Assembly: GCA_937901435.1 (NCBI GenBank)
Contig: CALGTJ010000703.1
Location: 1 to 6,901, forward strand
Origin: an uncultured Rhodobacter sp.
GTDB lineage: Bacteria; Pseudomonadota; Alphaproteobacteria; Rhodobacterales; Rhodobacteraceae
Length of the DNA: 6,901 nt
Reading direction: 5' to 3'
Translations under genes and position numbers: made by a program
In this document: positions 151 through 6,901 of the stretch, one piece after another
Layout: each line of letters begins with the position of its first letter
How positions within the stretch are numbered: the first letter of the stretch is position 1
The notes under the pieces: generated by a model
Database searches by the model: none
Seen by the model: only the letters and a program-made list of their open reading frames with translations
Told to the model about the DNA's origin: nothing

Positions 151-1290
151 TTAGCTTGTCGAGCCCAAGACACCTTCGACCAGATAATCCATGCTTTCGA
201 GGGTGATATCATTTTCCACAAACGCCTCGCCCTGCGCAGCGATGACATTGCCTGCGTTGTCGTTCAGCGGGCCCTTGATGACGGAATAGCCGCCTGCCAT
301 GATCTCTGCCTTGGTGGCCTCGAACTGGGCGCGCGCGGCGTCTGATACGGCAGGGCCGAGCGGGCTCATCTTGATGAACCCATCGGCCAGACCGCCGCGC
401 ACAAAGTTGTCGATCGTCCCGCCCTCTTGCATGGTTTTGACCATGCCTGTGTAGACGCCAGCCCAGTTCCATTCGGCCCCGGTCAGGTATTTTTCTGGTG
501 CCAGCGGGCTTTGATCGGCGTGATAGCCACAGACGAACGCGCCACGCCCGGCTGCGGTTTCCATGACGACCTTAGGCCCGTCCACATGGCAGGTGATGAC
601 GTCACAGCCCTGATCCGCCAGCGCGTTGGTGGCTTCGGCTTCCTTGACCGCCAGCGACCATTCGCCAGTGAAAATCACCTGACAGGTGATCGTCGGATCG
701 ACCTGCCGCGCGCCCAGCAGGAACGAGTTGATGTTCAGCAGAACCTATGGGATCGGCTTGGCCGCGACAAAGCCGATTTTCTTGGTGGTGGTCGCGTGGC
801 CTGCGGCGATGCCGTTCAGGAACTGGCCCATACCGGTATAGCCGAAATAGCTGCCCACATTCATCGGGTGCTTGTCCGCCGACCACAGACCTGCGGCGTG
901 CTGGAACCGCACATCGGGGTATTTCGGCGCGATCTCAAGGATATGGGGGTCGAAATAGCCAAACGAGGTTGGAAAGATCAGGTTTGCGCCGTCGAAATTG
1001 ATCATGGATTCCATGGTGTTCTGCACATCCACGGTTTCTGGCACGTTCTCTTCTTCGATGACGGTGATGCCCTCCATCGCCTTCACGGCGGCGGCACCCT
1101 CGGCGTGGGCTTGGTTGTAGCCAAAGTCATCCTTGGGGCCGACATAGATAAAGCCGACGGTCAGTTCTTTGGAATGCGCGGCGGCCTGTGCGCCGGAAAC
1201 GGGCAGGGTGGCCCCGGCGGCGGCAAGCCCCCCGAAGGCGGCGGTGTTCGTCAGAAAACGGCGTCCGTTGAGAGGTTTGAACGATGACAT
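151..1290 (-). pseudogene. BMP/PnrA-family ABC substrate-binding protein, interrupted by an amber codon
   Basis: This is a periplasmic binding protein of the BMP (Med/PnrA-like) family, whose characterised members mostly bind purine nucleosides; the ligand here is unknown. The gene has 380 codons. The start at 1290 is chosen because AAGGAG lies 7 bases upstream. An export signal occupies residues 1-38, with RR at 10-11, a hydrophobic Ala/Gly-rich core and probable cleavage after AQA or AQAAA; it resembles a Tat signal but is imperfect. There is no lipobox cysteine. The mature part begins KELTVGFIYVGPKDDFGYN, typical of the family, and continues with PTSFGYFDPHILEIAPKYP. Codon 182 is TAG, followed in the same frame by VLLNINSFLLGARQVDPTIT and an intact C-terminal half ending at TAA 151-153. 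A CAG (Gln) or GAG (Glu) codon would fit the family there, so one substitution explains the break. If real, it yields a 181-residue fragment and probably reduces permease translation. A sequencing error is the alternative. Confidence 0.88.
745..747 (-). other. Premature in-frame TAG in the BMP binding-protein gene
   Basis: The minus-strand codons around the site read AAG CCG ATC CCA TAG GTT CTG CTG AAC, that is K P I P stop V L L N. The residues on both sides are continuous family sequence in one frame, so nothing has been inserted or deleted. Plus-strand base 747 is A; a G there would restore CAG (Gln). BMP proteins commonly have a PIPEV-like segment at this place, so GAG is also possible as the ancestral codon. 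Confidence 0.85.
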
Positions 1291-1407
1291 ATGCGTGCTC
1301 CTTGGCGCGCCGAACATCTTGGGCTGGCGCGGATACGCTCGCAACGCCCAAGGAGGAATCGGCAGTTTTCAGTCTGTACGCTGGAAGATAGTCAGAGAGA
1401 GCGGTTC
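1291..1407 (-). promoter_or_regulatory. Leader of the BMP transcript with mutually exclusive hairpins (candidate)
   Basis: If transcription starts a few bases after the predicted -10 box, the BMP mRNA has a leader of roughly 115 bases. Two perfect stems are possible. In the first, CTTGGGC (strand-symmetric arms at 1318-1324 and 1346-1352, 7 pairs, 21-base loop) forms early and leaves the ribosome site free. In the second, arm 1348-1355 pairs with the ribosome site at 1298-1305 (8 pairs, 42-base loop). The arms share bases 1348-1352, so only one stem can form at a time. That arrangement is used by riboswitches and other translation-controlling leaders, but I recognise no known riboswitch class here and the short stems could be chance. 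Confidence 0.3.
1298..1303 (-). promoter_or_regulatory. Strong ribosome binding site of the BMP gene
   Basis: The minus strand reads AAGGAG here, 7 bases before the ATG at 1290. It fixes the start codon and excludes the longer in-frame extension to a TTG at 1344. The 8-base segment CCAAGGAG (1305-1298) is exactly complementary to CTCCTTGG further up the leader (1355-1348), so the site could be masked by pairing. Confidence 0.8.
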
Positions 1408-1413
1408 TGACGT

Positions 1414-1454
1414 ATGCTAAGTTTAACCAATCCCGGTGCAAAAAATGCACCGCT
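1414..1454 (-). promoter_or_regulatory. LysR-type operator with overlapping promoter, BMP operon copy
   Basis: On the minus strand, toward the BMP gene, the module begins with AGC and then the perfect palindrome GGTGCATTTTTTGCACC (1451-1435). The T at its third base and the A at its fifteenth form the T-N11-A pattern typical of LysR-family sites. After 13 bases comes CTTAGCAT (1421-1414). The palindrome's right arm supplies a possible -35 box, TTGCAC, and TAGCAT is a possible -10 box, separated by 16 bases. The same module with the same spacing precedes the second transporter operon at 2404-2444. Because the palindrome covers the -35 box, bound protein could repress by blocking polymerase or activate by contacting it. 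Confidence 0.72.
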
Positions 1455-1470
1455 TAATTATTGTGCATTT
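1440..1470 (-). terminator. Probable intrinsic terminator of the lysR-type gene
   Basis: On the minus strand, 15 bases after the regulator's stop codon, AAATGCAC (1470-1463) is followed by a 12-base loop and GTGCATTT (1450-1443). The pairing is perfect over 8 bases and ends in a run of six T. The stem has only three G:C pairs, so termination may be partial. The T-run and the right arm lie inside the BMP operator palindrome, so one sequence may serve both purposes. Confidence 0.45.
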
Positions 1471-1485
1471 ATCGGGGCGTTTTGC

Positions 1486-2388
1486 CTAGAATGCTTGTAA
1501 TTCCAGCGCCTGACTAAGCTGTTGTACGAATTTCGCACTGGCCACGGGCAGGGCGCGCCCGCGCAACTGACCCAGCAGCAGATTGCCGGGGGCCACATCT
1601 CGGGGGTCCAGAGGGGCGGCGACAAGATCGGGGTGATCTTGCACGTTCAACCCGATAGGAAATTGAAAACAAAGCGCATTTTCGTGCAACACATAATGGC
1701 GCATAAAGTCGAAGGACTCGGCCTCGGCGATGGGCGAGACAATGCTGGACGTTGATTTCTTCGCGGCAATGTCCAGCAAGACCCGGATCGCATAGTTGGG
1801 ATTGGGGGCGACATGCGGATGGGCAAGGCAGTCGCGCAGCCGCAAGGTGGGCCGCCCTGCCAGCGCATGAGAGCGGCGCATCACCACATAAATGGGCTGG
1901 GAAATTGCGGCGATCACTTCGAAATCGACCAGCACACGGGGTTCAAACACCAGCGCGATATCGCTGCTGAAGGTGCTGAGTTCCTGTTCCGCCTGCACCC
2001 TGTCGCGCACATTCACGCCAAAGGTCACGCCGGGATGATCGCGGCGATATTTGGCGATCTGATCTGGCAGAAAATAGGGTAACAGCGCCTGAGAGCAGGC
2101 TATCGACACATGCCCGCGCCGTTCGCCCGACAGATCCGCAACCTGCGACTGCACCCGTGTCAGATCGGACCGTTGTGCGCGGATATGCTGGATCAACAGC
2201 TCGCCGGCAGGGTTCAGGCGCACGCCGCGCGGCAGGCGTTCAAAGATCTCGGACCCAAAATCTTCCTCGAACCGGTTGATCCGACGGTTCAGCGCCGAGG
2301 CGGTGATATTCATATCCTCCGCCGCCTTGCGAATGGACCCGGCGCGCATCACGGCCTCTATGAACAGAAAGTCCTGCAGGTGTTTCAT
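1486..2388 (-). CDS. LysR-family transcriptional regulator
   Basis: This is a 300-residue LysR-type regulator, the usual family length. The N-terminal winged helix-turn-helix spans about residues 1-65: MKHLQDFLFIEAVMRAGSIR, then KAAEDMNITASALNRRINRF as the helix-turn-helix, and an EIFERLPRGVRLNPAGE wing. A linker helix follows, then the two-lobed ligand-binding domain from about residue 90, starting RGHVSIACSQALLPYFLPDQ. The start at 2388 (MKHL) is chosen because the family begins there; the 33 in-frame codons upstream look non-conserved and would overlap the divergent promoter. The ribosome site is weak. The gene lies between two ABC operons, divergent from the peptide-type one and in the same direction as the BMP one. 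Both are preceded by a matching T-N11-A palindrome, one of them only 18 bases upstream of this start codon. This suggests it controls both operons and itself. Its inducer is unknown. Confidence 0.93.
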   Translation of the reverse strand: MKHLQDFLFIEAVMRAGSIRKAAEDMNITASALNRRINRFEEDFGSEIFERLPRGVRLNPAGELLIQHIRAQRSDLTRVQSQVADLSGERRGHVSIACSQALLPYFLPDQIAKYRRDHPGVTFGVNVRDRVQAEQELSTFSSDIALVFEPRVLVDFEVIAAISQPIYVVMRRSHALAGRPTLRLRDCLAHPHVAPNPNYAIRVLLDIAAKKSTSSIVSPIAEAESFDFMRHYVLHENALCFQFPIGLNVQDHPDLVAAPLDPRDVAPGNLLLGQLRGRALPVASAKFVQQLSQALELQAF

Positions 2389-2403
2389 GGGTGTTCGGTC
2401 CTG

Positions 2404-2444
2404 AGCGGTACATTTTTTGCACCAGTTAAGTGAATTCTTAGCAT
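2404..2444 (+). promoter_or_regulatory. LysR-type operator with overlapping promoter, peptide-type operon copy
   Basis: The module begins with AGC and then GGTACATTTTTTGCACC (2407-2423), a T-N11-A palindrome with one imperfect position. After 13 bases comes CTTAGCAT (2437-2444). Possible promoter boxes are TTGCAC at 2417-2422 and TAGCAT at 2439-2444, with 16 bases between them, pointing toward the binding-protein gene. In the conserved blocks 27 of 28 bases match the copy upstream of the BMP gene, while only 3 of 13 spacer bases do. A further GTGCA half-site lies at 2447-2451, near the expected transcription start. The operator is also close to the divergent regulator gene, so it may control both directions. 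Confidence 0.72.
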
Positions 2445-2509
2445 TTGTGCAAACGCTCTGATCGGCGGACGCTGAGCGCAATGACAAAAATCAAAACCGA
2501 TTCACCCAC

Positions 2510-2522: not shown

Positions 2523-4133
2523 ATGACCCAGCTTTCACGTAGAAAATTCCTGACAACCAGCGGCGTCGCCATCGGCGCCGGGATGCTGCCCTTTCTCAAG
2601 GCGATGCCTGCACAGGCCGCAAATGGCGTGGTCGTGGCCGTGATGGGCCAGACCATCAACAGCCTCGACATTCATCGGTCCGGCACCAACCGCCCCAGTT
2701 ACCAGGTGGCAGTAAATGTCTATGACCGCCTTGTCACCTTTGGCACAAAGACGCTGCCAGACGGCGGCATTTCCTATGATTATTCGGTGATCGAGCCCGA
2801 GATTGCCGAAAGCTGGGAGATCACGCCAACAGAGATGATTTTCAAGCTGCGCCCGGATGGTAAGTTCCACGACGGCACGCCGATCACCGCCGCCGATGTG
2901 AAATGGTCCTTTGACCGCGCCGTCACCCTTGGCGGGTTCCCCGGCGTGCAGATGAAGGCAGGTTCGCTGGAAAGCCCCGATCAGTTCGAGGCGGTCGATG
3001 ATCTGACCTTCAAGATCAAGCTGATCCGCCCGTCCAAACTGACCCTGCCGGATTTGGCCGTGCCTGTGGCCATCGTCATCAATTCCAAGGTGGCGGCCGC
3101 CAATGCCACGGCGGACGATCCATGGGCGACGGAATATCTGCACACAACGCCCGCTGGCTCTGGTGCGTTCAAAGTCGCGCGCTGGAACCCCGGCGAGCAG
3201 TTGGTCTATGACGTGAACGCCGATTACACCTCTGGCCCCGTGCCGGCGGTCAAGCGCGTGATCTTGCGCGAGGTGCCCAGTTCTGCGACCCGTCGCGCGC
3301 TGTTGGAACGGGGCGATGTGCAGCTATCCTTTGATATGCCCAACAAGGACGCGTTGGAACTGGCCGGGATGGACGGGCTGGAAATCCAGACGACGCCTGT
3401 TGAAAACGCAATCTACTGTCTGTGTCCAAATCTCGCGTTCGAGCCCTTCAAAGACAAGCGAGTCCGCCAAGCCATCGCCTATTCTGTGCCCTACGCCGAG
3501 ATCTTTCAGGCCTCGGCCTATGGGCGCGGTGAACCCATGTGGGGCGGGACAGAGGCCAGCCCGTCCACAATCGCATGGCCGCAGAAATTCCCCTATGACA
3601 CCGATCTGGACAAGGCCAAGGCCCTGCTGGTCGAGGCGGGCTATGGCGATGGGTTCGAGGTGCCTCTGTCCATCGACCTCAGCCAGTCCGACTGGATGGA
3701 ACCCGCCGCGCTGCTGATCCAGGAAAACCTTGCCAAGATCGGCATCACCGCCACCATCGACAAGATCCCCGGCGCGAACTGGCGCACCGCCTCGCTGGTC
3801 GAAAAACGCCTGCCGCTGGCACTGGAAACCTTCGGCGGCTGGCTAAACTACCCGTGCTATTATTTCTTCTGGGCCTATCAGGACGGGCACCTGTTCAACT
3901 CGTCCAACTACCGCAACGACGAGGTCGAGGCGCTGACCGACGAGAACCTGCATATGGAGGTCGACAACCCCGAATATGCGCCCAAAATCACGCGTATGAT
4001 CGAGATTGTCTGGGACGAGGTGCCCCGGATCGCCCTGTGGCAGCCTGCGCTGAACGTGGGCATGAACGGGGTGACGGATCTGGAATACTGGTTCCACCGT
4101 CAGCTTGACGCGCGCAACCTGAAAGAAGTCTAA
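2523..4133 (+). CDS. Peptide/nickel-type ABC transporter substrate-binding protein (SBP_bac_5 family), Tat-exported
   Basis: This is a 536-residue periplasmic binding protein of the DppA/OppA family that would deliver a ligand to the permeases encoded just downstream. The export signal has a clear twin-arginine motif, SRRKFL at residues 5-10, then a hydrophobic segment and probable cleavage after AQA near residue 33. The mature protein shows family landmarks in order: the N-terminal lobe reading INSLDIHRSG and VAVNVYDRLV, then EIAESWEI, FKLRPDGKFHDGTPITAADV and the KWSFDRAV helix, and later PAGSGAFKV (the usual GTGPY region), FKDKRVRQAIAYSV and DLDKAKALLVEAGY. The length is normal and no break is seen. 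The gene is first in an operon, with the next ATG 4 bases after its TAA. Family members bind dipeptides, oligopeptides, nickel chelates, opines or sugars, so the ligand cannot be named. A LysR-type operator/promoter lies about 80 bases upstream. Confidence 0.93.
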   Translation: MTQLSRRKFLTTSGVAIGAGMLPFLKAMPAQAANGVVVAVMGQTINSLDIHRSGTNRPSYQVAVNVYDRLVTFGTKTLPDGGISYDYSVIEPEIAESWEITPTEMIFKLRPDGKFHDGTPITAADVKWSFDRAVTLGGFPGVQMKAGSLESPDQFEAVDDLTFKIKLIRPSKLTLPDLAVPVAIVINSKVAAANATADDPWATEYLHTTPAGSGAFKVARWNPGEQLVYDVNADYTSGPVPAVKRVILREVPSSATRRALLERGDVQLSFDMPNKDALELAGMDGLEIQTTPVENAIYCLCPNLAFEPFKDKRVRQAIAYSVPYAEIFQASAYGRGEPMWGGTEASPSTIAWPQKFPYDTDLDKAKALLVEAGYGDGFEVPLSIDLSQSDWMEPAALLIQENLAKIGITATIDKIPGANWRTASLVEKRLPLALETFGGWLNYPCYYFFWAYQDGHLFNSSNYRNDEVEALTDENLHMEVDNPEYAPKITRMIEIVWDEVPRIALWQPALNVGMNGVTDLEYWFHRQLDARNLKEV

Positions 4134-4137
4134 GCAC

Positions 4138-5163
4138 ATGGCTGGGCGAGGAAAAACCATAGCGTTGCGCGTCGCCCAGTCCATTCCGGTGGTCATCGGC
4201 GTGATCATCGTCAGCTTCTTGCTGACCCGCGCCTTACCGGGCGACCCGGCGGTCTATTTCGCCGGGGACGCCGCGGATGAGGCAAGCATCCAGCAGGTGC
4301 GAGAGGCCTTGGGTCTGGACAAGTCCTGGCCTGTGCAATTCGCGTTATATGTGGGCGATCTGCTGCGCGGAGATCTGGGCGTTTCGCTGACCACAGGCCA
4401 GCCCGTTTTGGCGGAACTCTCGCGCCGCTTGCCTGCCTCGCTGGAACTGACCCTGACCGCCTTGATCCTGTCCTGCGCCGTAGCCGTACCGCTGGGCGTC
4501 ATGGCCGCCACGCGTCCCGGTTCATGGCGCGATCACCTGTGCCGGGTGGTGGTGACGGCGGGGGTGTCCTTGCCGACTTTTTTTACCAGTATCTTGTTGA
4601 TTTACATATTTTATTACTTTCTTGGGGTGTCGCCCTCGCCACTGGGTCGCCTGGATTTCATGTTCCTTGAACCGGACCGGATCACCGGGTTCTACCTGAT
4701 CGACAGCGCCCTCGTCGGCGATTGGGAGACCTTTGTCGCCACCGCCAACCAGTTGATCCTGCCCGCCGTCACGCTGGCCCTGTTCACCATGGCCCCGATC
4801 GCCCGCATGACCCGCGCCGCCATGCTACAAGCCCTCTCGTCCGACTATGTGCGCACCGCCCGCGCCGCTGGCCTGACCACGCGCAAGGTCCTGTACGGAT
4901 ACGCTTTCCGCAACGCCTTGCTGCCGGTTGTCACGACGCTGGGCATGGTGTTTTCCTTTACCCTCGGGGCCAATGTACTTGTCGAGAAAGTCTTTGCCTG
5001 GCCCGGCATCGGATCTTATGCAATCGAGGCGCTTGTGGCGTCCGATTATGCCGCCGTGCAGGGGTTTGTCCTTGCCATGGCGCTGCTGTTCGTGGCGCTC
5101 AATCTTGTGATCGACATCTCGTACTCGCTGATCGATCCGCGCATCGGGTTTGACGCAAAATGA
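4138..5163 (+). CDS. DppB/OppB-like ABC transporter permease
   Basis: This is a 341-residue inner-membrane permease, one half of the transmembrane channel of the peptide/nickel-type transporter. The first helix lies at about residues 10-30 (ALRVAQSIPVVIGVIIVSFLL) and is followed by TRALPGDPA, the characteristic DppB-family segment. The periplasmic part includes LGLDKSWPVQFALYVGDLLRGDLGVSL, also typical. Several further helices follow. The cytoplasmic EAA-type coupling loop begins near residue 236 (DYVRTARAAGLTTRKVLYGYAFRNAL) and would contact the ATPase. The C-terminus has VEKVFAWPGIGSYAIEAL and ends SLIDPRIGF, both standard for the family. The gene starts 4 bases after the binding-protein stop and its own TGA overlaps the next ATG by 4 bases (ATGA), so it is translationally coupled. 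The stretch 4575-4624, encoding a membrane helix, is much richer in A and T than its surroundings. Confidence 0.93.
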   Translation: MAGRGKTIALRVAQSIPVVIGVIIVSFLLTRALPGDPAVYFAGDAADEASIQQVREALGLDKSWPVQFALYVGDLLRGDLGVSLTTGQPVLAELSRRLPASLELTLTALILSCAVAVPLGVMAATRPGSWRDHLCRVVVTAGVSLPTFFTSILLIYIFYYFLGVSPSPLGRLDFMFLEPDRITGFYLIDSALVGDWETFVATANQLILPAVTLALFTMAPIARMTRAAMLQALSSDYVRTARAAGLTTRKVLYGYAFRNALLPVVTTLGMVFSFTLGANVLVEKVFAWPGIGSYAIEALVASDYAAVQGFVLAMALLFVALNLVIDISYSLIDPRIGFDAK

Positions 5164-6044
5164 CCGATATTCCCGATACCCAGACCCCCGATACCCAGAC
5201 CTCAGGTTGGATCAGCCACGCCGTCTATATCATGCGGGAAAATCCGGTCACTTTGCTGGCCTTCGTCCTGTTCGCGATGTTCATTGCCTGCGCGATCTTT
5301 GGCCCCGCGCTGGTGCCCTATGATCCGCTCGCCTCTGACACCTCTGTCGCCTTGCAACCACCCTCAGCCGCCCATTGGTTCGGTACCGACAGCCTTGGGC
5401 GCGATGTGTTCAGCCGCGTCATCGTCGCCACGCGGCTGGACCTGACGATCTCTGTCGCCGCCGTCGCCATTTCTTTCGTAATCGGGTCCATCCTTGGGGC
5501 CATCGCGGGCTATTGGGGCGGCTGGATCGACGCGGTCCTGAACCGGGTGCTGGATACGATCATGGCCTTTCCGCTGTTCGTGCTGGCCATGGGGATCGTC
5601 GCAGCACTGGGCAATACGGTCGAAAACATCATCTACGCCACAGCCCTGATCAACATCCCGTTTTACGCGCGCCTTGTGCGGGCAGAGGTGAATATCCGCC
5701 GCGACGCGGGCTTTGTTCAGGCGGCCAAACTGGCGGGCAACACCGACCTGCGCGTGCTGGCCTTTCACATCTTTCCCAACGCCCTGCCGCCGATGATGGT
5801 GCAGGTCTCGCTGAACCTTGGCTGGGCGATCCTGAACGCCGCTGGCCTCAGCTTTATCGGTCTTGGCGTGCGCCCGCCCACACCCGAATGGGGCATCATG
5901 GTGGCCGAGGGCGCGAATTTCATCGTCTCGGGCGAGTGGTGGCTGGCGCTGTTTCCCGGTCTCTGGCTGATGCTGGCGGTCTTTACCTTCAACCTGATGG
6001 GCGACGGATTGCGCGATCTGGTCGACCCCCGTCAACGCAAGTGA
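5160..6044 (+). CDS. DppC/OppC-like ABC transporter permease
   Basis: This is a 294-residue inner-membrane permease, the second half of the channel. A short hydrophilic N-terminus contains the pentapeptide PDTQT twice (residues 5-14). The first membrane helix follows at about 31-50, then FGPALVPYDPLA. The DppC signature HWFGTDSLGRDVFSR lies at residues 72-86. The cytoplasmic EAA-type loop is at about 183-211 (AGFVQAAKLAGNTDLRVLAFHIFPNALPP). The C-terminal part has AAGLSFIGLGVRPPTPEWG, ending in the common NLMGDGLRDLVDPR segment. All landmarks are in place and the length is normal. The start overlaps the stop of the preceding permease gene (ATGA), and its own TGA overlaps a GTG of the ATPase reading frame, showing a compact operon. 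Confidence 0.94.
   Translation: MTDIPDTQTPDTQTSGWISHAVYIMRENPVTLLAFVLFAMFIACAIFGPALVPYDPLASDTSVALQPPSAAHWFGTDSLGRDVFSRVIVATRLDLTISVAAVAISFVIGSILGAIAGYWGGWIDAVLNRVLDTIMAFPLFVLAMGIVAALGNTVENIIYATALINIPFYARLVRAEVNIRRDAGFVQAAKLAGNTDLRVLAFHIFPNALPPMMVQVSLNLGWAILNAAGLSFIGLGVRPPTPEWGIMVAEGANFIVSGEWWLALFPGLWLMLAVFTFNLMGDGLRDLVDPRQRK
5172..5201 (+). repeat. Perfect 15-base tandem duplication in the DppC-like gene
   Basis: CCCGATACCCAGACC occurs twice in direct succession (5172-5186 and 5187-5201). The unit is five codons and in frame, so it encodes PDTQT-PDTQT in the hydrophilic tail before the first membrane helix. The perfect match at every base suggests a recent duplication by slippage with little effect on the protein. 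Confidence 0.9.
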
Positions 6045-6055
6045 AGACCCCGCAG

Positions 6056-6901
6056 ATGAGCTTCCTCAGCATCAAGAACCTCGGCGTCAGCTTTGCCACT
6101 CGAAAAGGGCCCGTCAGTGCCGTGCGCGATGTCAGCCTGACGTTGGAAAAGGGTGAAACCCTTGGCATCGTGGGGGAATCCGGTTCTGGGAAATCTGTCA
6201 CCTCCTATGCGTTGACCCGCATCCTTGACGCGGGCGGCAGCATCACGGCGGGCGAGATCCGGTTTGACGGGATCGACCTGCGCGCGGCCACCAACCCAGA
6301 GATGCAGGACATTCGCGGCCGCGAGATTTCGATGGTCTTCCAGAACCCGCGCGCCGCGCTGAACCCGATCCGCAAGGTCGGTCATCAGATCGAGGACGTG
6401 CTGCGCCGCCATTCCCGAGCAACCCGCTATGACGCCCGCTCCAAAGCCATCGAGGCGCTTGAGGCGGTCCGGATCAAGGACGCCGCCGCGCGCTATGAGC
6501 CTATCCGTTCGAGCTGTCAGGCGGCATGTGCCAGCGCATCGTCATCGCAATCGCGCTGGCCTGTGACCCCCGCCTGTTGATCGCGGATGAACCAACAACA
6601 GGCCTTGATATCACGACACAAAAGGCCGTGATGGACCTGATCACCCAGCTGTCGCGCGACCGGGGGATGAGCACGCTGCTGATCACCCACGACCTTGGCA
6701 TGGCGGCACAATATTGCGACCGGATCGTGGTGATGAAGGACGGCGAGTTGGTCGAAGAGGGCAGGCCCGCGACCTTGTTCGCGCAGGCCAAACACCCCTA
6801 CACGCGCAAACTCGTTGCCGCGACCCCGCGCAAAGGGGCCAGTATCCGCGAGTTGCTACCCGCGGAGGCGCGCAAACCGTTGAAACAGTATATCCCCGGT
6901 G
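6056..6901 (+). pseudogene. DppD-like peptide/nickel-type ABC transporter ATPase, frameshifted and cut by the window edge
   Basis: This is the cytoplasmic ATP-hydrolysing subunit that would drive the transporter. From the ATG at 6056 the frame encodes Walker A GESGSGKS at residues 40-47 and a Q-loop with Gln96 in VFQNPRAALNP, up to RYE148. The next codon lacks one base: GAG CC TAT (6497-6504). The original frame then ends at TGA 6578-6580. In the other frame, from 6502, the protein resumes as YPFELSGGMCQRIV, with the ABC signature at 6514-6534, Walker B LLIADEP with its Glu at 6589-6591, TTGLD, the switch His at 6688-6690 (ITHD), and the HPYTRKLVAATP segment typical of peptide-type ATPases; it stays open to the edge. 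GAG GCC TAT (E-A-Y) would restore it. A GTG at 6041, overlapping the previous stop, is an alternative start. As written the product lacks Walker B and the signature and could not hydrolyse ATP; a sequencing error is equally possible. Confidence 0.88.
6497..6504 (+). other. Site of a -1 frameshift in the ATPase gene
   Basis: The upstream frame reads CGC TAT GAG up to 6499 and the downstream frame reads TAT CCG TTC GAG from 6502, leaving two bases (CC) between them. One G missing from an original GAG GCC would explain it. No slippery heptamer is visible here, so programmed frameshifting is unlikely. Confidence 0.82.

Follow-up and report, generated by a model that had tools for sequence, protein, structure and literature searches.

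A LysR-type gene between two predicted composite operators and two ABC transporter operons points to a probable AtzR-type regulon in an uncultured Rhodobacter sp.

Two near-identical sites flank a LysR-type gene in the DNA of an uncultured Rhodobacter sp. (the window, a stretch of 6,901 nucleotides) and are probably operators of the regulator encoded between them, each combining a main recognition site (RBS), a second site (ABS), and a weak promoter within a regulon of AtzR type. The probability given to this reading is about 0.8 and is not set higher due to a repression reported for plasmid pADP-1 and to row selection in the conservation footprint. Computation yielded the sites, how far they are conserved, how they associate with the regulator and operons, and the column pattern; DNA binding, activation, autorepression, the inducer, the substrates, and the positions of the promoters are predicted from these. 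Joint control of both transporter operons by the LysR-type gene, as the original prediction from this DNA had proposed, is strongly supported by the comparison across loci and genomes. It looks like a known kind of control with modest novelty; the regulon had originally been put down as undescribed in kind, yet the layout resembles that of AtzR on pADP-1 as reported (PMC6834077).

The gene between both sites encodes a LysR-type transcriptional regulator (Table 1), with an N-terminal HTH_1 domain (PF00126, E 4.6e-16) and a C-terminal substrate-binding domain (PF03466, E 3.1e-23), and its closest relative amongst the best 120 of 3415 matches in a protein search is 93% identical. The BMP-type gene falls into two pieces (745-1344 and 151-678) that share one frame and both match PF02608; its product is 76% identical to a Sulfitobacter BMP protein. 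The frame of the ATPase gene is broken near 6.5 kb (plus), and this break and the in-frame TAG of the BMP gene reflect either recent decay or sequencing error. A scan for consensus promoters from 1290 to 2530 found none, and promoters were instead placed from the footprint of conserved columns across relatives. The same scan reported a terminator-like match at 1434-1452, which is simply the palindrome, read on the strand that carries neither lysR nor the BMP gene.

Table 1. Genes and predicted regulatory parts of the window.
Feature	Position	Strand	Basis
BMP/PnrA-like solute-binding protein gene	151..1290	minus	ATG at 1290-1288, in-frame TAG at 745-747
Predicted -10 TATCTT, BMP side	1385..1390	minus	T61 92%, A62 75%, T66 71%
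Predicted -35 ACGTCA, BMP side	1408..1413	minus	G40 100%, C42 82%, A43 92% (28 non-redundant downstream-class sites)
Predicted second-site (ABS) position before BMP gene	1415..1427	minus	Role inferred from LysR-type architecture
Predicted main recognition site (RBS) before BMP gene, GGTGCATTTTTTGCACC	1435..1451	minus	Duplicate match, downstream-class footprint
lysR, LysR-type regulator (HTH_1 + LysR_substrate), 300 aa	1486..2388	minus	ORF with ATG and TAG, Pfam domains
Predicted main recognition site (RBS) between lysR and peptide-type transporter, GGTACATTTTTTGCACC	2407..2423	plus	Duplicate match, footprint
Predicted second site (ABS) TGAATTCTTAGCA, weaker T-N11-A copy	2431..2443	plus	Footprint; role inferred
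Predicted -35 TTGTGC, transporter side	2445..2450	plus	T38 97%, T39 76%, G40 57% of 73
Predicted -10 GACGCT, transporter side	2468..2473	plus	A62 87%, T66 75% of 73
Peptide-type solute-binding protein (SBP_bac_5)	2523..4133	plus	Domain match
Peptide-type ABC permease 1	4138..5163	plus	Domain match
Peptide-type ABC permease 2	5160..6044	plus	Domain match
Peptide-type ABC ATPase, cut by window end	6056..6901	plus	Frames; domain match for 3' piece only

The 41-base stretches at 1454-1414 (minus) and 2404-2444 (plus) are equal at 27 of 28 block positions and at 3 of 13 spacer positions, and a recount of both 41-mers reproduced the original coordinates and counts exactly. The next-best 41-mer match within the window agrees at 15 of 28 block positions, while the best match after 40 shuffles of both intergenic regions reached 19 of 28. 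With ~1e-7 such pairs expected per window, assuming independent bases, a chance origin was set aside; the duplicated module is real and far above chance. Its palindrome has two six-base arms flanking five T-rich bases, with one arm pair broken in the plus copy (GGTACA); the lysR ATG is 18 bases away from this copy. A recent local duplication without function would likewise leave two near-identical copies so close together (within 1 kb), but both copies recur across genera with a fixed geometry and the second only where an operon follows, leaving this origin a negligible probability.

For the comparison across relatives, columns were numbered from the palindrome start (column 0) and footprints drawn from 73 non-redundant upstream-class sites, in the divergent promoter of lysR, and 28 non-redundant downstream-class sites, 3' of lysR. 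Of the 38 downstream-class candidates 31 were used, with seven lacking AGCA left out, as were five upstream-class candidates outside 10-50 bases from lysR. Conservation of the palindrome columns (both classes) and of AGCA (downstream class) is high partly through this row selection; AGCA was no selection criterion for upstream-class rows, in which it is 98-100% conserved. The consensus core reads AGC-GGTGCA-N5-TGCACC-GCT, followed in the upstream class by TGAA at columns 24-27 (T24 98%, G25 95%, A26 89%, and A27 86% of the 73 sites) and TAGCA at 32-36, so that the 13-base spacer, originally taken as unconserved, is in fact kept across species in this class (T24 98%, n = 73). Columns 24-27 differ in the downstream class.

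At columns 24-36 of the upstream class, TGAATTCTTAGCA forms a weaker T-N11-A copy centered 22 bases past the palindrome center, the same distance as separates the RBS and ABS centers of the plus copy in the window. We infer that the palindrome is the main recognition site and that CTTAGCAT contributes the distal half to a second, weaker one. At the ABS position before the BMP gene the distal half AGCA is present and the proximal half is weak (first position G, not T). As to the original interpretation, the T-N11-A palindrome is seen in both window copies and in the sites of relatives, and the cross-locus comparison supports selection on the blocks; together with joint control these parts stand, whereas CTTAGCAT as a free block, which the conserved columns fold into the second site, and the undescribed kind of regulon do not.

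Beyond AGCA, upstream-class sites carry TTG at columns 38-40 and, 17 bases past that hexamer, A62 and T66; downstream-class sites carry ..G.CA at 38-43 (commonest ACGTCA and AAGACA), then T61, A62, and T66. The A62/T66 pair is seen in 70% of the 102 non-redundant sites; at no other offset from 38 to 109 does it exceed 24%. A62 is found in 97% of the oppA-first and 85% of the atzF-first subset and T66 in 90% and 57%, and in the three BMP-first upstream sites column 62 is T, not A. This sigma-70-like -10 signature lies ~24 bases beyond CTTAGCAT and predicts transcription starts near 1378 on the BMP side and near 2480 on the peptide-transporter side. With the -10 at columns 61-66, the palindrome would be centered near -65 and the ABS near -43; LysR-type regulators are reported to have a high-affinity site near -65 and low-affinity activation sites closer to the promoter (PMC4730206). 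The T-N11-A palindrome is located in the regulator's divergent promoter, as expected of a LysR-type composite operator.

Two further patterns appear in the footprints. Downstream-class sites share A-CGCT at columns 46-51, between the predicted -35 and -10 (A46 and C48 in 100% of 28), which is possibly a third half-site of the regulator. In the upstream class, the other strand of columns 28-33 and 54-55 reads TGCTA plus a conserved AA pair. In these we see a possible extended -10 and -35 for lysR, weak in the window, that would be consistent with autorepression.

The module itself might instead be the promoter, with TTTGCA of the right arm as the -35, TAGCAT as the -10, and the regulator a simple repressor on it. 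The two hexamers are spaced by 17 bases in both copies, TAGCAT matches four of six positions of the -10 consensus, and the pADP-1 transporter operon is reported to be repressed by AtzR (PMC6834077). We regard this arrangement as unlikely, as the last T of TAGCAT is found in 60% of upstream sites and is mostly G (71%) in downstream sites, the AGCA within it is nearly invariant upstream without selection, and the -10 signature at columns 61-66 is stronger.

Sites were sought at 86 loci (the window, five plasmid loci, and 80 genome loci; L006 and L007 were left out of the counts), the genome loci being the best 80 of 182 confirmed in a scan of genome contigs, with regulator identities of 63-79%. 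A site was accepted with at most 4 of 12 arm mismatches and with AGCA or two one-letter variants in place. The composite site is present in the divergent promoter at 83 of the 86 loci, the misses being L011, L001 (TTGGCA), and L080 (a weaker candidate 550-590 bases from lysR), and the first gene after it is oppA (49 loci), atzF (28), BMP (3), ICH3 (1), or none recognized (2). Where a BMP or biuret operon follows in the direction of lysR, a second copy stands 3' of the gene at 31 of 32 loci, L001 being the sole miss, against 0 of 52 others, with two loci of <400 bases downstream left out of the test; a Fisher value for this contrast overstates the case, as the loci are related. On the tree the operon trait changes at least four times, with three independent supported pairs that are concordant in nearly all pairings, and a sign test over the three (p 0.25) is alone not significant.

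A profile built without the tested locus gave 25 further matches, 13 scoring above 23 and 12 under 22, against 0 after a single mononucleotide shuffle of the loci. The matches above 23 precede oppA in L042, L010, and L080, BMP in L014, L018, L061, and L029, and, in the atzD clusters L017 and L024, both a biuH-like ICH1 and an ABC-ATPase-like gene; in L085 and L035 they lie beside lysR on the lysR strand. The operator thus travels with the operon. Absence of the motif before orthologous operons had been named beforehand as grounds against the regulon, and the motif stands before them. That the two sites are alike in geometry suggests that both operons are activated.

In a sample of 295 genomes of one family, a regulator search at E 1e-60 matched 44 genomes, down to 42% identity. 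A strict form of the motif occurs in 21 of the 295, all within those 44, and in 0 of the 251 sampled genomes without a regulator match, which bears out the co-occurrence looked for at the outset; a reversed-pattern control gave 0 matches across the 295. Of the 24 strict matches, 23 are no more than 100 bases away from the regulator gene; the remaining one stands before oppA at a distance of ~8 kb. The strict motif recovers 36 of 86 candidate sites upstream and 25 of 38 downstream, and its absence from 23 of the 44 regulator genomes agrees with this limited recall. It was chosen for the genome comparison because a looser motif had background (31 matches in 17 of 18 regulator genomes vs 4 reversed-control matches), several of its matches looking like chance. 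With the looser motif, composite-like sites were also observed away from known lysR loci (G002:C5:203739-203775, G014:C22:209906-209942, and G017:C36:174501-174537).

This distribution bears on who reads the site. Nitrogen genes are often globally controlled and LysR binding is here a prediction, so another regulator, e.g., a global nitrogen regulator, might bind with the LysR-type neighbor coincidental; this is very unlikely given that, across the searched loci and the 295 sampled genomes, the strict motif was found only beside the LysR-type gene or before operons of that cluster, and that arm letters shift in more distant LysR relatives. The palindrome might also be a sigma-54 promoter (GG-N10-GC) under nitrogen control as in pADP-1, having G at columns 0 and 1 and GC at 12 and 13, and the pADP-1 operons being reportedly sigma-54 dependent (PMC6834077). 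Such a promoter is highly improbable here: GG-N10-GC is not invariant, its second G being present in 65% of upstream and 46% of downstream sites, the two arms are conserved together as a dyad, and none of the 251 sampled genomes lacking a regulator match has the strict motif. As to the arm letters, the left arm is GCTGC in 6 of 8 loci with a match amongst relatives at 50-55% identity, a form that occurs amongst closer relatives too, and relatives at 41-44% have GTTGC with GCAAC arms in 4 of 4. Five relatives at 41-52% (L090, L092, L094, L104, and L105) gave no match to the search pattern in the stretches covered. At L088, L089, L106, and L091 (41-44%) the same site grammar is seen with GTTGC...GCAAC arms and TTAGCA, and in the first three the divergent neighbor carries nitrite-reductase domains.

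The neighbors of the regulator in relatives, together with the similar pADP-1 layout, indicate an AtzR-type nitrogen-scavenging regulon. Plasmid relatives (65%) carry allophanate hydrolase, isochorismatase-family hydrolases, and a BMP operon, or a peptide-type transporter, beside the regulator. Amongst the 86 loci, atzF is found in 71, biuH-like genes in 44, atzD in 4, and oppA in 56, of which 47 also have atzF. The gene content of an AtzR regulon (a BMP operon with cyanurate, biuret, or allophanate genes) is found in relatives, while the window shows the BMP gene only and the enzymes, if present, lie beyond its ends. Locus L008 is laid out like the window: atzF closes the operon divergent from lysR, following the ATPase counterpart, and the operon after lysR holds BMP, two permeases, formamidase, BiuH, ATPase, a TrtA-like protein, and a cupin. 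NCBIfam cut-offs are passed by AtzF, BiuH, and formamidase of L008 and by AtzD of L012. The TrtA-like (second isochorismatase-family) protein of L008 falls below the BiuH cut-off and is nearest to structures 6xix and 6xj4, listed for Herbaspirillum TrtA (PMC7948467). For the BMP protein of L008 the nearest structure is 6pi5, reported as the atrazine periplasmic binding protein, i.e., AtzT (PMC6834077). AtzD-like genes (46-51% to the cyanuric acid hydrolase AtzD of pADP-1) occur in or near the L012, L013, L017, L024, L093, L094, and L105 clusters.

On pADP-1 (Pseudomonas sp. ADP), a LysR-type gene is likewise flanked by a divergent degradation operon (atzD) and a BMP transporter operon, with GGTGCC-N5-GGCACC on both sides of it (L006, 5900-5916, upstream of atzD, and 6953-6969, immediately past the LysR-type gene). 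Its protein, taken as AtzR from gene position and the account in PMC6834077 (the sequence record reads LysR family regulator), is 44% identical to the window regulator. There too a single regulator is reported to act on both operons, atzDGEHF and the transporter operon atzRSTUVW (PMC6834077). The systems differ in several ways. The inner arm of the pADP-1 palindrome is C/G and that of the window A/T, and the AGCA half was not found at the same offset in the pADP-1 sites, so that the class of palindrome is shared and the full grammar of palindrome plus AGCA is not. Both pADP-1 operons are reported to be sigma-54 dependent (PMC6834077), in contrast to the sigma-70-like signatures at window-type sites. 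AtzR with cyanuric acid reportedly up-regulates atzDGEHF and represses atzRSTUVW (PMC6834077), against the activation proposed for the window operons, and given this report the direction of control may differ between the two operons. Where pADP-1 has AtzE and AtzG, window relatives have BiuH, and they carry a peptide-type transporter in addition. On the tree the pADP-1 regulator sits on a long branch, paired with Azospirillum L007 from a different gene context. The regulon is of AtzR type; strict membership is not claimed, given the long-branch placement of the pADP-1 regulator and the missing AGCA half at its sites.

Operons with TrtA, BiuH, and AtzF are reported from Rhizobium leguminosarum 3841 and Herbaspirillum sp. 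BH-1 (PMC7948467), and the same enzymes, TrtA-like included, are found in window relatives. The word 'regulator' has 0 occurrences in the main text of PMC7948467 and one in PMC5806882, within the reference list. Some atzG-atzE-atzH clusters are reported near a LysR-family regulator and an ABC transporter, and further ones with allophanate hydrolase and ABC transporters (PMC6219798); their gene content is unlike that of window relatives and the available text of that report describes no operator. No operator for biuret or allophanate clusters is described in the surveyed literature, which is weak evidence since the survey mostly leaves subscription journals uncovered. The reported composite operators of BenM, DntR, OccR, and OxyR likewise join a high-affinity site near -65 with low-affinity sites near the promoter (PMC4730206), while the window-type composite has a fixed 22-base spacing and is repeated before at least two operons per cluster.

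We propose that each operator contains the strong palindromic RBS (center ~-65), followed by the weaker ABS (center ~-43, distal half CTTAGCAT) and by a weak sigma-70-like promoter with its -35 at columns 38-43 and its -10 at 61-66. A tetramer would most likely occupy RBS and ABS, and an inducer would shift it so that RNA polymerase gains use of the weak -35, while the copy next to the start of lysR would additionally act in repression of that gene. The regulon would serve to take up and hydrolyze nitrogen compounds derived from urea, such as biuret, triuret, or cyanuric acid, which would enter through the BMP-type and peptide-type importers. Whether the RBS, ABS, -35, and -10 form a portable operator cassette of one AtzR-type regulator that stays with the operons of urea-oligomer scavenging when these are rearranged, with the SBP_bac_5 transporter as a second importer, appears evenly balanced; if so, the atzF-linked peptide-type SBP_bac_5 transporter imports biuret, triuret, or related carbamoyl compounds.

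The many-locus comparison gives the likely complete layout of a LysR-type operator, with its promoter and two sites for the protein. Related regulators whose half-sites have shifted offer material for studying changes in DNA specificity. The motif is specific enough for finding the regulon in whole genomes. Two ABC transporters without an assigned role can now be placed, as a prediction, in a pathway for nitrogen scavenging in alphaproteobacteria, of which many are marine.
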